In this document: positions 52,913-60,530 of the stretch, piece by piece
How positions within the stretch are numbered: the first letter of the stretch is position 1
Layout of the letters: each line of letters opens with the position of its first letter
From: Flavihumibacter rivuli
GTDB lineage: Bacteria; Bacteroidota; Bacteroidia; Chitinophagales; Chitinophagaceae
Direction: 5' to 3'
Assembly (NCBI RefSeq): GCF_018595685.2
Contig: NZ_CP092334.1
Coordinates: forward strand, 3,314,001 to 3,378,000
DNA: 64,000 nucleotides
The notes under the pieces: model-generated
What the model saw: the letters and a program-made list of their open reading frames with translations, nothing else
Told to the model about the DNA's origin: nothing
The model's database searches: none
Made by a program: the position numbers and the translations under genes

Positions 52913-53443
52913 TTAAACCCCTTTTCCTTTATGCTTTCTGAATTCAGCCATGGAAGAAAATGGCAGTTTGCTACCCTTGCTGGTCACCTCTTTGATAAAT
53001 TGATCACATTCGCTTTGGTTCATAATTCCTTTTGTAATGGCGAATTCCAAAATGTCCATGGTCGTGTAATAAACTATCTGGTTTTCCTGGCAATAAGATT
53101 TAATATCTTTTAGGTTACTGCTCGCAATATAATCCCGTCGAAACCTTGCAACAGCCATACAGGCACTTTCGCCTTCACCTCTTAATTTTTTAAGAGCTGC
53201 ATATTCCCTCAATATATGTACATCTTTTGGCATGGGGATAACTGGGATTTTAGTCCAGTGCAGGAAATTTTCAATGCTTATTGATGCTGATTTATGTTTG
53301 ATTAATTCCTGCTTAACCTTATCCAGCATTACCAGCCTGCCCGGGAAAATGGAAGCCAGTTTCAGATGACTACCCCCTTTTATAAAGTGAATGACGACAT
53401 CTGCATCCAGTAATATCTTTGGTTCATCCTGCTGCCTTGTCAT
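52913..53443 (-). CDS. PIN-domain-like putative nuclease of the Xre/ImmA operon
   Basis: The 176-residue protein starts with a PIN-type strand and acidic pair KILLDADVVIHFI (D13, D15). VMLDKVKQEL supplies E46, RGEGESACMAVAR supplies E90/E92 and YIASSNLKDIKSYCQE has N110/D113 at the usual third acidic site, followed by QIVYYTTMDILEFA. This order fits the PIN fold of Mg2+-dependent ribonucleases (VapC-like), with the last site altered. It overlaps the ImmA/IrrE gene by 20 nt and is last in the operon. Likely the effector of a three-gene toxin-antitoxin or defence unit (inference). Confidence 0.8.
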   Translation of the reverse strand: MTRQQDEPKILLDADVVIHFIKGGSHLKLASIFPGRLVMLDKVKQELIKHKSASISIENFLHWTKIPVIPMPKDVHILREYAALKKLRGEGESACMAVARFRRDYIASSNLKDIKSYCQENQIVYYTTMDILEFAITKGIMNQSECDQFIKEVTSKGSKLPFSSMAEFRKHKGKGV

Positions 53444-54167
53444 CCTCCACCAGGTTTTTATCCGGGTCTATCCCTATATCTGACATCATACTGTAAAAGT
53501 CAGATTCTGATATCAGGTCTTTGTCCAGGAGTTGCTTTGCCTTCAGGCCATAATCGCCGATGAATCTGTTTTTGTTGCCTGGTTCATAGAGTTCTGTGCT
53601 GTAACCCATTTGAAGGGCATTGCGCTTAATATTACCGGGATCCTTTAATTGTTCCAGATAGGATGAACTGATCAGGTCCAGGAATTTGAGCCGGTTGAGC
53701 AAGGCAGACCTTGACACGCCAAAGTATTGTTCCAATTTGGTGACTGTACTGATGGTGATACTATCTTTCTTTAATTCCTTTTCGGGGGATTGTTCAATTA
53801 TGCCGTCTTCCGGAATCAAAAAATAGGAAGAGAACCAATCTGCATTATATTCCTCTTTATCTTTCTTATCGAAACTGCCTACGAAACAGATTCGGTTTTG
53901 GAATTCTTCCTGGATGAACAGATGGTAGAGTTCGTGCCCAATGGTAAATCTTTGCCTGGCAATGATATCATTGGCATTGATCATCATGAAATGACCATAA
54001 CCATTTTTAACGGCCATACCGGAAAAGTTATCCCCCATTTCTTTAAAAAGGGTGATCACATTCAGCCTGGTCAACAGGTGACCAAGATTGACGGGTTCTG
54101 TCGGGGATAAGCCATGCTCCTCCCTGAATTTATTGGCCTTATATTCAATTAATCTTTCCTTACGCAT
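53424..54167 (-). CDS. ImmA/IrrE-family metallopeptidase
   Basis: The 247-residue protein has the zinc motif RFTIGHELYHLFIQEEF (HELYH at 78-82) and the downstream EEYNADWFSSYFLIPEDGI (E105/E106 third-ligand candidates and the typical N/A-D-x-F-x-LIP segment). N-terminal LIEYKANKFREEHGL...VNLGHLLTRLNV and a C-terminal winged-helix-like region (VTKLEQYFGVSRSALLNRLKFLDLI) complete the family architecture. ImmA/IrrE peptidases cleave repressor proteins upon a signal. The gene overlaps Xre by 8 nt and the PIN gene by 20 nt, so the peptidase probably acts on the co-encoded Xre protein. Confidence 0.92.
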   Translation of the reverse strand: MRKERLIEYKANKFREEHGLSPTEPVNLGHLLTRLNVITLFKEMGDNFSGMAVKNGYGHFMMINANDIIARQRFTIGHELYHLFIQEEFQNRICFVGSFDKKDKEEYNADWFSSYFLIPEDGIIEQSPEKELKKDSITISTVTKLEQYFGVSRSALLNRLKFLDLISSSYLEQLKDPGNIKRNALQMGYSTELYEPGNKNRFIGDYGLKAKQLLDKDLISESDFYSMMSDIGIDPDKNLVEDDKAAG

Positions 54168-54498
54168 GACGCTGCCCTAATTGAACGATACGGTGGTAAT
54201 TCCTGATGACCCTTCTGAATGTGGCAATGTTTTCCATGTCCTTTGCGGTGAGGTGATCTGCCCTGAAGGCAAATGCCATTTCAGCGGCCACTTCATCAGG
54301 GTTATCTGAGAAAAAGATATCCAGCGCTACGCCAAATAGATCAGCTAATTTTTCCAATGCTTCCAAAGAAGGCTCCCTTGTGCCATTTTCGTAATAGCTG
54401 ATCATTTCCCTTTTTACGCCCAGGTAATCTGCTACGGTTTCCTGTTTATAGCCGTATTGCTGCCGTAACTTTTTTATGATAGGTCCGCAATGCTCCAT
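54160..54498 (-). CDS. Xre-family HTH regulator of the ImmA/PIN operon
   Basis: The 112-residue protein carries a HTH_3 domain (about 8-62: IIKKLRQQYGYKQETVADYLGVKREMISYYENGTREPSLEALEKLADLFGVALDIFF). The C-terminal part (RADHLTAKDMENIATFRRVIRNYHRIVQL) is helical and may be the peptidase recognition or dimerisation tail. It is the first gene of the operon, as is usual for the antitoxin or repressor. An inverted repeat lies just upstream. Confidence 0.93.
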   Translation of the reverse strand: MEHCGPIIKKLRQQYGYKQETVADYLGVKREMISYYENGTREPSLEALEKLADLFGVALDIFFSDNPDEVAAEMAFAFRADHLTAKDMENIATFRRVIRNYHRIVQLGQRHA

Positions 54499-55721: not shown

Positions 55722-58700
55722 ATGAACCATGTTGTGACATTTTTCGACCTGGAGGTCGATCCTAAATCAAAAAAGATTGCCGATCTGGGTTATATCTCCT
55801 CAGACCATTCCCAATACCATGGCACTTCTATTGAAAAACTATTGGCACAATTTAACAGGTCGCAGTTCATAGCTGGACATAATATCCTGCTTCATGATCT
55901 GCCTTATATGGCCAGATTGTATCCTGATATAGAATTCGATCAATGGAAGCATATTGATACGCTTTTTCTTTCCCCCATTCTATTCCCTTCCAAACCCTAC
56001 CACCGACTGCTGAAGGATGATAAGATTTCTGATGATGCACCTAACAATCCATTGAACGATTCAATCAAGGCAAGAGACCTTTTTTTCGATGAGCTGGCCA
56101 CTTTTCAAAGATTGAATCCAAATGTGCAACAAATATTTTACCACCTCCTTACGCCGGACCATCGGTTTAAACATTTTTTTGAATACATAGCCTTTCGACC
56201 AACCTCCAATAGCAATCTTTTAAACCTCATTCGGGACAGCTACCAAGGTAAATTTTGCTTTAATAGTCCCTTAGAATCAATCATTGAAACTGAGCCGGTT
56301 GAGCTCGCCTATGCGTTAGCGCTTATTGGGGCTCAAGACCGTCAATCCATTCTGCCGCGCTGGTTGCTTTTCACCTTTCCCAGGTTGGAATATGTACTCA
56401 AGCTCCTGAGAGGTACGCCTTGCCCGGAATCCTGCCAGTATTGCTCAGAATCCTTGGATGCCAGGCGTGCCTTGAAAAAGTATTTTGGCTACGATGCTTA
56501 CCGGGTTTATGATGGTGAGCCTTTACAGGAAAAGGCTGTTACCGCTGCCATCAATAATAAATCCCTGCTGGCTATATTTCCTACCGGCGGTGGTAAGTCC
56601 ATTACTTTCCAGGTTCCGGCTTTGATCAGTGCTGATACAGAAAAAGGACTCACAGTGGTTATCTCTCCGCTGCAGTCATTGATGAAAGATCAGGTGGATA
56701 ATCTTTTGGAAAAGCAAATTACCGCTGCTGTTACCATTAATGGGTTGCTCGACCCGATCGAAAGGAGCATGGTGCTGGAACAGGTTGCTGACGGATCTGC
56801 TGGTATTCTATATATTTCTCCTGAATCACTCCGATCGGCTACCATTGAAAAGGTTTTACTGGGTAGGCATATCAGTCGTTTTGTGATTGATGAGGCGCAC
56901 TGTTTTTCTTCATGGGGGCATGATTTTAGGGTAGATTATCTCTATATCGCTGAGTTTATTAAAACAATACAACAAAAAAAGAACCTGGAATTTCCTATCC
57001 CGGTTTCCTGTTTTTCTGCAACTGCCAAGCCCCAGGTTGTAGATGATATCCGCAATTATTTTAAAAGCCGATTGAACCTAGAACTTGAACTTTTTCAGGC
57101 CAGTGTAAGAAGAAAGAATCTCCATTATAAGGTTATTAGACTGGATTCCGACGAATCCAAATATGATACGCTACGCAATTTGTTGGCTCAAAAAGACTGC
57201 CCTACGATTATCTATGTTTCCCGGACAAAGAAGGCGGAAAAGATCGCGGAAAAACTAAGTGCGGATGGGTATGAGGCGCTCGCTTTTCACGGCAAAATGG
57301 ACAGACAGGATAAAACGAGCAATCAGAATGATTTTATCGCCGGTTCTACCAGGATCATTGTTGCTACCGCTGCTTTTGGGATGGGCGTGGATAAAAAGGA
57401 TGTGGGCATGGTTATTCATTATGATATTTCTGACTCATTGGAAAATTATGTCCAGGAGGCAGGAAGGGCCGGGAGGGACGAAGCTTTGCAGGCTGATTGT
57501 TATGTATTGTTCAATCCGGATGATCTGGACCGGCATTTCAGCAGGCTGAACCAAACTAAAATGAGCCAGGCTGAGATCAACCAAATCTGGAAGGCTATCA
57601 AGGATCTTACCAGGAAGCGAGTAAATATTTCGAATTCTGTGCTTGAAATCGCCAGGAAAGGTGGTTGGGAGGAAGGTATTGAAGATCTGGAAACACGAGT
57701 TAAAACGGCTATAGCAGCATTGGAAAATGCCAGCTATCTAAGACGTAAACAGAATATGCCCCGGGTTTTTGCTACCAGTATTGAAGTGTTCAATGCTGAT
57801 GAAGCAATTTCGAGGGTTAACAACTCAGCTAGAATATTGCCTGATCAGAAAGTAAATGCCATTAGAATTATCAAGTCGCTTATCTCTTCCAACCGTAAAT
57901 CTATCGGCCGGGATGAAGCAGTTGAGTCCAGGGTCGATTATATCGCTGATCGGTTAGGTATTACCGTTTATGAGACGATTGAGCTCATTAACCTGCTGAG
58001 AGAAGAAAAGATACTTGCTGATGCTAAGGATATTCAGATCAGTATTGACAAAGGGGAAGATTTAAAAGCACAGAGGCTGTTACTGGAACATGTTGCCATG
58101 GAAAGGGCTTTATCCCAAAAACTGAGTCTCGAAGCAACTATATTCAATATCAAGGAACTACTTGATGATATTAATAATGATCTTGGTAAGGAATATTCCC
58201 CCACATTTATAAAGAATATCCTGAATTTTTGGGTGGTCAAAAAATGGTGTAAAAGACAGCTTCAGGAATATTCCAGGAACCATTTGCAACTTCAGCTTAC
58301 CCTTGACAATGAAAAGCTACTGGAGCGTATTGAGAAGAGGGCTGCTATATGCAATTTCATAATTGAGTTTGTCGGGCAATTAATTAATAAAAGTTCCTCA
58401 ACTAATACAAAGGAGGGGATTGTTAATGTTTCTGTTATTGGACTGCGGGATAGTTTTATTCAATCCAACTCCTTATTTAAACAATCGGCTACAATTGAAG
58501 AAATTGAGGATGCGCTATTTTATTTGTCCAGAATTGGTGCCATGAATATTGAAGGGGGTTTTATTGTTACCTATAATAAAATACAAATAGAAAGAATTGA
58601 AAAGAATAATAAGGTCCAGTATAAAAAAGAAGATTATGCCCAATTGGAGGAATATTATAAGCAGAAAGCGGAACAGATTCATATTGTAGGGGAATACGCA

Positions 58701-60530
58701 AAGCGGATGGCTAATAACTATGAGGATGCTATTAATTTCACCGAGGATTATTTCAGTTTGCCCTATGACCGATTTATTCGAAAATATTTTCCTGGTGAAA
58801 AGGCACGTGATCTAAAGATGAGAATCAGTCCTGAAAAGTTTAAACGCATTTTTGGTTCCCTCGATCCCCGGCAATTGAGCATCATTAATGATAAGGACCA
58901 TCAGCATATCATTGTGGCTGCGGGTCCGGGTAGTGGCAAAACCCGAATCCTTGTAAGTAAAATGGCCTCACTGCTGTTAATGGAAGATATAAAACATGAG
59001 CAATTGCTGATGTTAACTTTTTCGCGGGCTGCTGCTATGGAGTTTAAAAAAAGGTTACTTGAACTTATTGGACCAGTGGCCCATTATGTAGAGATCAAAA
59101 CTTTTCATGCATATTGTTTTGATTTGTTAGGCAGGCAGGGTAATCTCGAAAAATCAAATGATATTTTAAAGATTACGGTTAATAAAATACGTAATGGCGA
59201 GATTGAGCCTAATAGAATCACCAAGCAAGTCCTGGTGGTAGATGAAGCGCAAGATATCAATGACGATGAGTTTGAATTGATTAAAGCCCTTTTAGAGCAA
59301 AATGAGAATATGAGAACCCTGCTGGTTGGGGATGATGATCAGAATATTTTTGATTTCAGGGGTGCGAGCAACCGAGCACTTAATGAAATGGCCCGATTGG
59401 ATGGGTCAGTATTGTATCACCTGGTAACCAATTATAGATCTGTTCAGAATATTGTGGCTTTCAGTAATCAATGGGCTCGTTACTTACAGAATAGAATGAA
59501 GCGGGAAGAAATTTCCGCAAAAACAATTGAAAATGGCCTGGTAGAGTTGGTTCAATATGCGGGTAAGCAATTCAACATTGGTGTTGCAGAGGAGATAACC
59601 AGGCAAAGACCTGAGGGAACAATAGCGGTACTCACCTATAGGAATGAAGAAGTACTTCAAATGCAATGCCTATTGCAGAGAGCTGGTATTCCAAACAGGA
59701 TAATGCAGCATACTGAAGGGTTTTATTTGTACAATCTCCTGGAGTTAAAGGAGTTTACGGATTGGGTTTGCCTAAAAACGGATAGTCCGGTTATTACAAA
59801 AGAGGACTGGGAGTCAGCTAAAAAGGGTTTAAAAGCTCAGTATGGTAAGAGCACCCAATTGCCCTCCTGTCTGGGGATCATTGATGCATTTGAACAGTCA
59901 AGTCCTGGGATAATGTACAAATCTGACTGGAAGACCTTGCTCGCAGAGTCGGGCATGGATGATTTTACCGGGATTGGCAGCGAATTGGTTTACTTGAGTA
60001 CGATTCATAAAGCAAAAGGAAGGGAATTCGATAATGTTTATTTGATGCTAAATGGATTGGATCCCAAGTTGGAGGAAACAAAACGCCTCATTTATGTTGC
60101 GTTGACCAGGGCTAAAAAGCGCCTTTTCATTCATTATAATGGTACTTATTTTGATCGGGTAAAAGTAAATGGACAAACAAATAGATTTGATGCCACTAAT
60201 TATGATCTGCCGCCCGAGATAAAGCTGCAGCTCACGCACAAAGATGTTCAGCTTGGCTATTTTGAATATGTACAAAACAGGGTGCGTTCCTTGCTGCCGG
60301 GATCGGAGTTGAACATTCTCAATGATGCTGAATTGGGTTATAAGGAGAATAGGGTCGTCAAATATTCCAGTTCATTCAGGGAAAAACTGGAAGTCTTTTA
60401 CCAAAATGGGTATCGTCAAAAAAGGGCAGAGGTGAATTATGTGGTCTACTGGAAGAATCCTAATAACGGCTCTGTATGCAGGATACTTCTTCCTGTAGTT
60501 TATCTGAATAAATATAATGATAATCATTGA
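55722..60530 (+). CDS. DEDD-exonuclease / RecQ helicase / UvrD helicase fusion protein
   Basis: The 1602-residue protein has three parts. (1) The N-terminal DEDD/DnaQ-like exonuclease (1-130) has FFDLEVD (D9, E11), AGHNILLHDLPYM (D59) and YHRLLKDD...LNDS (H94, D113). (2) The RecQ-type SF2 helicase is preceded by a Cys cluster C-P-E-S-C-x-x-C (about 235): motif I IFPTGGGKSITFQV (about 285), DEAH (about 390), FSATAKPQV and FGMGVDKKDVGMVIHYDIS...QEAGRAGRDEA. (3) A UvrD/Rep-type SF1 helicase near the C-terminus has AGPGSGKTRIL (about 1067), VVDEAQDIND (about 1174), GDDDQNIFDFRGA, TIHKAKGREFDN and LIYVALTRAKKRLF (about 1460). All catalytic motifs look intact. It is AT-rich and alone on its strand. 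Confidence 0.93.
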   Translation: MNHVVTFFDLEVDPKSKKIADLGYISSDHSQYHGTSIEKLLAQFNRSQFIAGHNILLHDLPYMARLYPDIEFDQWKHIDTLFLSPILFPSKPYHRLLKDDKISDDAPNNPLNDSIKARDLFFDELATFQRLNPNVQQIFYHLLTPDHRFKHFFEYIAFRPTSNSNLLNLIRDSYQGKFCFNSPLESIIETEPVELAYALALIGAQDRQSILPRWLLFTFPRLEYVLKLLRGTPCPESCQYCSESLDARRALKKYFGYDAYRVYDGEPLQEKAVTAAINNKSLLAIFPTGGGKSITFQVPALISADTEKGLTVVISPLQSLMKDQVDNLLEKQITAAVTINGLLDPIERSMVLEQVADGSAGILYISPESLRSATIEKVLLGRHISRFVIDEAHCFSSWGHDFRVDYLYIAEFIKTIQQKKNLEFPIPVSCFSATAKPQVVDDIRNYFKSRLNLELELFQASVRRKNLHYKVIRLDSDESKYDTLRNLLAQKDCPTIIYVSRTKKAEKIAEKLSADGYEALAFHGKMDRQDKTSNQNDFIAGSTRIIVATAAFGMGVDKKDVGMVIHYDISDSLENYVQEAGRAGRDEALQADCYVLFNPDDLDRHFSRLNQTKMSQAEINQIWKAIKDLTRKRVNISNSVLEIARKGGWEEGIEDLETRVKTAIAALENASYLRRKQNMPRVFATSIEVFNADEAISRVNNSARILPDQKVNAIRIIKSLISSNRKSIGRDEAVESRVDYIADRLGITVYETIELINLLREEKILADAKDIQISIDKGEDLKAQRLLLEHVAMERALSQKLSLEATIFNIKELLDDINNDLGKEYSPTFIKNILNFWVVKKWCKRQLQEYSRNHLQLQLTLDNEKLLERIEKRAAICNFIIEFVGQLINKSSSTNTKEGIVNVSVIGLRDSFIQSNSLFKQSATIEEIEDALFYLSRIGAMNIEGGFIVTYNKIQIERIEKNNKVQYKKEDYAQLEEYYKQKAEQIHIVGEYAKRMANNYEDAINFTEDYFSLPYDRFIRKYFPGEKARDLKMRISPEKFKRIFGSLDPRQLSIINDKDHQHIIVAAGPGSGKTRILVSKMASLLLMEDIKHEQLLMLTFSRAAAMEFKKRLLELIGPVAHYVEIKTFHAYCFDLLGRQGNLEKSNDILKITVNKIRNGEIEPNRITKQVLVVDEAQDINDDEFELIKALLEQNENMRTLLVGDDDQNIFDFRGASNRALNEMARLDGSVLYHLVTNYRSVQNIVAFSNQWARYLQNRMKREEISAKTIENGLVELVQYAGKQFNIGVAEEITRQRPEGTIAVLTYRNEEVLQMQCLLQRAGIPNRIMQHTEGFYLYNLLELKEFTDWVCLKTDSPVITKEDWESAKKGLKAQYGKSTQLPSCLGIIDAFEQSSPGIMYKSDWKTLLAESGMDDFTGIGSELVYLSTIHKAKGREFDNVYLMLNGLDPKLEETKRLIYVALTRAKKRLFIHYNGTYFDRVKVNGQTNRFDATNYDLPPEIKLQLTHKDVQLGYFEYVQNRVRSLLPGSELNILNDAELGYKENRVVKYSSSFREKLEVFYQNGYRQKRAEVNYVVYWKNPNNGSVCRILLPVVYLNKYNDNH

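Follow-up and report, generated by a model that had tools for sequence, protein, structure and literature searches.

A widespread exonuclease-RecQ-UvrD protein encoded by a mobile accessory gene: a candidate single-gene helicase-nuclease for defence against invading DNA

Introduction

When one gene encodes a nuclease and two helicase motors in a single chain, does its product mend the DNA of its host, or does it attack DNA that comes from outside? A 64,000-nucleotide stretch of the Flavihumibacter rivuli genome raises this question (contig NZ_CP092334.1, positions 3,314,001 to 3,378,000, called hereafter the window, whose coordinates are used below). It carries an open reading frame of 1602 codons (55722..60530, + strand), in which an original prediction, made from the letters alone, had recognized DEDD exonuclease, RecQ and UvrD modules, and which it read as a stand-alone machine for DNA end processing or defence. 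Our preferred reading, to which we give a probability of about 0.48, is that the product is a single-gene helicase-nuclease which is exchanged horizontally and acts on DNA ends or forks, most likely those of phages or plasmids. Four kinds of evidence are its basis: the module set, the constancy of the architecture among relatives, their patchy distribution and the association of some copies with restriction loci. From these we infer a role in defence against invaders.

Results

One chain with a nuclease and two motors

All three predicted modules were recovered by profiles, motifs and structural models, and the order along the chain is exonuclease, four-cysteine site, RecQ core, winged-helix array, UvrD core and beta-rich tail. 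The N-terminal DEDD-fold exonuclease domain spans approximately residues 1–230 (55722..56411, +). It is followed by a RecQ helicase core of superfamily 2 (SF2), delimited by profile matches and motifs (about residues 246–628; 56457..57605, +), and, further on, by a UvrD-type core of superfamily 1 (SF1; about residues 1036–1490; 58827..60191, +). Four winged-helix-like modules are predicted at about residues 616–958 (57567..58595, +), from the order of helices and strands in an AlphaFold model of residues 604–1602, read by eye without a fold search of that part. AlphaFold secondary structure also delimits the C-terminal beta-rich domain (about residues 1499–1602; 60216..60527, +). The possibility of a chance open reading frame was ruled out by homologues of equal length and module order.

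Conservation was read from an alignment of the query with 91 homologue rows spanning more than 1200 query residues, drawn from 120 BLAST hits; two rows (L004 and L091) are the same sequence and six are gapped at residues 9–59. RecQ motifs I, II and VI are intact in 88–91 of the 91 rows, as are UvrD motifs I and III; in motifs II, V and VI of UvrD, 90–91 rows retain the catalytic letters, while other positions vary.

The SF2 core belongs to the RecQ family (TIGR00614, 281.8 bits, above the cut-off of 219.8) and WRN RecQ chains match residues 250–610, but it stays below the curated cut-off of the bacterial RecQ equivalog TIGR01389 (320.5 versus 640.2 bits, the match being limited to residues 248–618). 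Similarly, the SF1A core and its motifs place the second motor among UvrD/PcrA/Rep-type helicases, with scores of at most 119.9 bits against NCBIfam cut-offs of 911–1168 for the UvrD, PcrA and Rep equivalogs. The helicase core of DinG is XPD/Rad3-like, and the protein is no DinG in this respect, since its SF2 core is RecQ-type. The two motors had been described as opposite, which is correct for their superfamilies (SF2 versus SF1) and incorrect for their polarity, as the RecQ and UvrD helicase families both move 3'-to-5'.

In classical RecQ proteins, a four-cysteine zinc subdomain follows the helicase core. Here, only C593 is conserved beyond RecQ motif VI, so that the usual zinc subdomain is missing, and the protein departs from the classical form. 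The cysteine cluster that had been noted is real and conserved, but it precedes the RecQ core: it consists of C179 (88 of 89 rows), C234 (89/89), C238 (89/89) and C241 (90/91), between the exonuclease and the core (56256..56444, +). This Cys4 site probably binds zinc.

The exonuclease centre probably has an asparagine for the usual histidine

The exonuclease acids had been described as intact, and in the homologues that reach them they are invariant: D9, E11 and D59 in each of the 85 rows that have a residue there, and D113 in 87 of 87. The fold is closest to that of Staphylococcus aureus DinG (SaDinG), and DinG and DnaQ were the best among the fold matches listed. According to passages of a report on SaDinG (PMC12345164), its active site is made of D10, E12, D95, H149 and D154, the histidine standing five residues ahead of the last aspartate.

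Which residue takes the place of this histidine depends on which aspartate comes last. If it is D113, the position falls on N108, which is Asn in 83 and Ser in 4 of 87 rows. If it is D99 (Asp in 82 and Asn in 4 of 86 rows), H94 fits (85 of 85 rows), with the exact H-x4-D spacing. D113 is favoured, on account of its position at the start of a long helix and its invariance, though the register is weak. When the domain is aligned, very weakly, to a DnaQ-type protein that the same genome encodes (probability 1.4%, ending at residue 96), the stretch preceding H94 aligns well before the histidine of that protein, and extension of this alignment by eye puts D113 at the place of the last aspartate and N108 at that of the histidine. 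Model confidence is lowest around the candidate site, with pLDDT (predicted local distance difference test) values of 68 for residues 91–100 and 74 for residues 101–110. The canonical DEDDh histidine is thus probably replaced by Asn, and by Ser in some homologues. Whether the protein serves defence or repair, what a near-invariant Asn does in the centre of a nuclease is a clear question for biochemistry.

A large family filed under RecQ

With residues 1–245 as query, 1655 proteins were matched at E≤1e-6 among 2401 candidates, in a database clustered at 90% identity. The three-domain order, for which the original prediction had proposed a survey of homologues, is shared: 117 of the 120 listed exonuclease-domain relatives are 1577–1644 amino acids long and possess both motors, the other three being shorter (895, 1144 and 1154 amino acids). 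A full-length search scored at least 8000 candidates, and a genome scan found at least 588 encoding stretches, which may include ordinary RecQ relatives; the 80 best stretches were retained. Database names, where given, are mostly RecQ helicase, with one "ATP-binding protein", and one homologue (P0006) is named F. petaseus. The RecQ label hides a constant three-module architecture in a family of this size. In three homologues the exonuclease half is cut off, by in-frame stops in L003 and L038 and by a frameshift in L071, which may be either real loss or an error of draft assembly; the remainder of these three genes is mostly open.

Patchy distribution and horizontal exchange

Presence in all relatives as a conserved core gene with normal repair neighbours had been named in advance as the observation that would speak against a defence role. 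Full-length copies were found in 2 of 14 congeners (G009, and G010 where the copy is split across two contigs), in 3 of 21 genomes from other genera of the family and in none of 23 from the order; these sets include some incomplete genomes. Across the phylum, the gene was detected in 15 of 392 genomes, which represent 12 of 178 genera, its own included (E≤1e-100). A core repair gene is rejected by this patchy presence in genus and phylum, and the gene is accessory. Places covering at least 80% of the query were found in 7 of 72,556 plasmid records and in none of 50,697 phage records. Among 2.9 million viral contigs, one scan gave eight loci and another at least one more, both being exact-pattern scans that may miss relatives. 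That it is a phage gene was rejected on the phage and viral counts.

A FastTree tree of 89 rows was built, with long-branch warnings and with the closer homologues P0002–P0005 left out. Its genome rows come from Bacteroidota, Bacillota, Thermodesulfobacteriota, Lentisphaerota and Balneolota, and its plasmid rows from Bacteroidota, Campylobacterota, Pseudomonadota and Cyanobacteriota. Family labels were available for 53 rows, those of the window and G009 being assigned by hand. The window gene pairs with G009, apart from other Chitinophagaceae. Thirteen rows bear the Chitinophagaceae label, whose placement requires 8 changes (five or more of them forced by starred branches), and the Bacteroidaceae and Sphingobacteriaceae labels change as often as they occur (6 changes for 6 rows and 4 for 4). 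Because family labels are scattered while phylum labels are clustered (see Discussion), we conclude that the gene moves inside the phylum and occasionally from one phylum to another, with vertical descent as the background.

At the window itself, the gene lies in an AT-rich stretch, as had been stated (40.9% GC versus 49.4%). Within the genus, a close orthologue of the left flanking gene was found only in G012 and G013 (65–66% identity). On two contigs of a viral collection (L187 and L188), serine-recombinase-like open reading frames, read from protein starts, lie near the homologue and suggest carriage on integrative elements.

No fixed partner, but restriction genes in the vicinity

Neighbours at a distance of up to six genes were surveyed in 100 loci, after 20 duplicates had been dropped. 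No neighbour cluster occurred in more than 5 of them, and one cluster of three members turned out to be the gene's own split N-terminus. A fixed operon is therefore rejected, and the description of the protein as stand-alone holds.

Places of N6_Mtase and Eco57I hits, taken as marks of restriction methylases, were compared with those of the gene in 37 carrier genomes, with Aldedh as control. A methylase hit lay within 30 kb in 9 of the 37 (1.7 expected, p = 7e-5) and within 15 kb in 5 (0.84 expected, p = 0.002), figures to be read with the facts that the distance windows were not fixed beforehand, that the genomes are related and that contig ends were ignored. None of the 147 merged Aldedh hits listed lay within 30 kb (1.9 expected), Aldedh being metabolic and hence a generous control.

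Individual loci, chosen because their neighbours looked like defence genes, were checked by profiles. In L035, hsdR, hsdM and hsdS stand beside the copy, hsdR on the same strand at a distance of about 130 bp; in L168 it is hsdM and hsdS, with hsdM on the same strand at about 160 bp. McrBC adjoins the homologue in L026 and L020, AbiEii stands beside the copy in L023 and HNH_2 beside that in L006. Among plasmid copies, the one from Allochromatium has hsdRMS nearby (by annotation) and the one from Thiothrix has type I-D CRISPR genes some 4 kb off. HipA is present on the Aliarcobacter and Rhizobium plasmids that carry a homologue. The Aliarcobacter copy directly adjoins parA/parB, with replication genes beyond. 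Downstream of the Bacteroides copy, which has no obvious defence neighbour, there are genes for single-stranded-DNA-binding proteins at about 2.5 and 6 kb and one for ParA at about 6 kb, and the only defence-like neighbour of the Sulfitobacter copy is a VapC pair about 5 kb off. PADLOC matched 256 models in 140 neighbours and 22 in 139 control genes; as the models are redundant, 25 of them are listed, and models rather than proteins are counted, this difference was not used as a test.

Discussion

Relation to known systems

WRN combines a 3'-5' DEDD-type exonuclease with a RecQ core, and is not known to carry a UvrD motor. The window protein resembles it in carrying a predicted exonuclease of this type N-terminal to the RecQ core, and differs by its additional UvrD motor, by an exonuclease fold for which DinG and DnaQ were the best among the matches listed, and by a Cys4 site placed before rather than after the core. 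AddAB and RecBCD employ a RecB-type nuclease and a RecC/AddB partner; here a single chain has RecQ as the other motor and a DEDD nuclease. Compared with the exonuclease-containing DinG of S. aureus, the protein has a RecQ-type helicase and a second, UvrD motor, and the canonical histidine, H149 in the SaDinG passages cited (PMC12345164), is probably Asn. Known defence systems match one module each in PADLOC: DpdF of Dpd at residues 244–626 (4.5e-99), PsyrT at residues 246–629 and GajB of Gabija in the UvrD part. Neither GajA nor any other dpd model was matched among the six neighbouring proteins scanned. Gabija, which passages of a preprint (PMC12407980) describe as a nuclease-helicase system proposed to block the circularisation of phage DNA, is nonetheless a parallel as a combination of these two activities.

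Exonuclease-RecQ proteins are already in print. In the passages concerned, a 2014 survey of the RNase H-like superfamily places PF13482 exonuclease members in one cluster, F.14, with "RecQ ATP-dependent DNA helicases" (PMC3985635). This cluster may include the present family, although the passages say nothing of a UvrD module, of how the family is distributed or of a context of defence. No description of an exonuclease-RecQ-UvrD protein was found in the open-licence literature, covered mostly as titles and beginnings of abstracts.

Proposed mode of action and its alternatives

In the mechanism that we propose, the winged-helix array and the Cys4 site would hold the junction of duplex and single strand at a DNA end, a gap or a stalled fork. 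The RecQ motor would unwind 3'-to-5', and the UvrD motor would walk 3'-to-5' on single-stranded DNA, either along the partner strand or in front, where it would remove proteins. Since both families share this polarity, the two motors would either take one strand each or follow one another along the same strand. The exonuclease would trim the 3' ends so exposed, and their loss would stop annealing, circularisation, recombination and priming, which makes linear or replicating phage or plasmid DNA the likeliest target, attacked alone or after a cut by a restriction enzyme. Invading DNA is also the likelier substrate given that the gene is accessory and mobile and that some copies sit in surroundings rich in restriction genes. 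If the gene is one of defence, RecBCD and Gabija have in it a compact counterpart whose two motors form an unusual pair. It is possible, though less likely than not, that the fullest form of this proposal is correct, namely that the motors thread both strands of an invading end or fork, that an Asn-variant DEDD nuclease destroys the 3' ends, and that the family is a large, undescribed and partner-free defence family.

Several observations weigh against the preferred reading. Nuclease activity is not certain, given that the general-base histidine of DEDDh enzymes is probably Asn or Ser. No PADLOC model covers the whole protein (PADLOC-DB 2023; best 25 of 71 families), and there is no conserved partner gene. 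The most frequent Pfam families among the 140 neighbours are ordinary; such families top the neighbour and control sets alike, and integrase and conjugation genes occur in the control. Within 10 kb, the methylase excess is only 3 versus 0.56 expected (p = 0.02), and what the enrichment shows is that the genes have an accessory location in common, rather than a function. On the tree, phylum labels cluster (10 changes versus a shuffled mean of 20.4), and so does the Chitinophagaceae label, beyond shuffles (8 versus a mean of 11.8; a value as low in 1 of 500). The original reading as an end-processing or defence machine is supported in part: methylases are enriched nearby, the commonest neighbour families are ordinary, and accessory repair or plasmid maintenance is a possible role.

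The main rival, which is quite possible, is an accessory repair enzyme that deals with crosslinks, stalled forks or breaks in host DNA, like WRN, exonuclease-DinG or MrfA/MrfB, and that spreads through its benefit under stress. Many of the DEDD exonucleases, like RecQ and UvrD, belong to families that act in repair, and the exonuclease fold is closest to that of SaDinG. In the passages cited above (PMC12345164), SaDinG has 3'-5' exonuclease and 5'-3' helicase activities, and deletions of SaDinG and of MrfA/MrfB cause sensitivity to mitomycin C only. Such a role fits poorly with absence from most congeners, the lack of a recurrent neighbour of any kind, the nearby enrichment of restriction genes and two other RecQ-type proteins that the genome keeps. 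If it is nevertheless correct, the protein is a bacterial enzyme of the WRN or DinG kind that has a second motor. The parA/parB genes beside the Aliarcobacter copy, and the single-strand-binding and ParA genes near the Bacteroides copy, would instead suit a helper that replicates, maintains or recombines its plasmid or island; this is improbable in view of the rarity of the gene in plasmid, phage and viral records and the lack of a conserved replication partner. RecBCD degrades DNA after restriction, and a companion of restriction systems, finishing off restricted DNA and having no effect alone, would agree with same-strand hsdR and hsdM and with adjoining McrBC. Yet in 28 of the 37 carriers neither an N6_Mtase nor an Eco57I hit lies within 30 kb, some contigs ending sooner, and we give this explanation the least credence.

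Flanking features of the locus

An Xre/ImmA/PIN operon had been reported nearby. It is divergent from the fusion gene, and profiles bear out two of its members: an Xre-type repressor (HTH_3; 54160..54498, −; PADLOC capH, 2.1e-10) and an ImmA/IrrE (M78) protein (53424..54167, −; PF06114, 2.9e-15; PADLOC capP, 4.5e-24). The PIN-like third gene (52913..53443, −) owes its label to the earlier reader and has no Pfam hit. CapH and CapP are DNA-damage-linked regulators of CBASS; the Xre and ImmA proteins match these models, but here the PIN-like gene comes next instead. One recurrence of the ImmA-PIN pair beside the fusion gene was found, on the viral-collection contig L189 (L189:1-1228), where a pair with 41% identity each precedes the homologue. 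The PIN protein is rare, being encoded in 3 of 392 genomes of the phylum, and the other two of these three are not among the 15 with the fusion gene. It has two plasmid matches, no relative in the scan of viral contigs, and some relatives named "predicted nucleic acid-binding protein" in one source.

About 0.5–8 kb beyond the right end of the window, in a stretch of 38% GC, lie a PIN_3 gene with an upstream partner (L183:459-1338) and, as judged from the beginnings of its proteins, an IS21-like pair (L183:5735-8066). Also outside the window, about 25 kb downstream of the fusion gene, profiles identify a 1246-amino-acid Eco57I/TaqI_C restriction-modification protein (L184:1221-4961). Its gene is followed and overlapped by another large gene, and an HNH-like open reading frame is present at L184:6015-6692.
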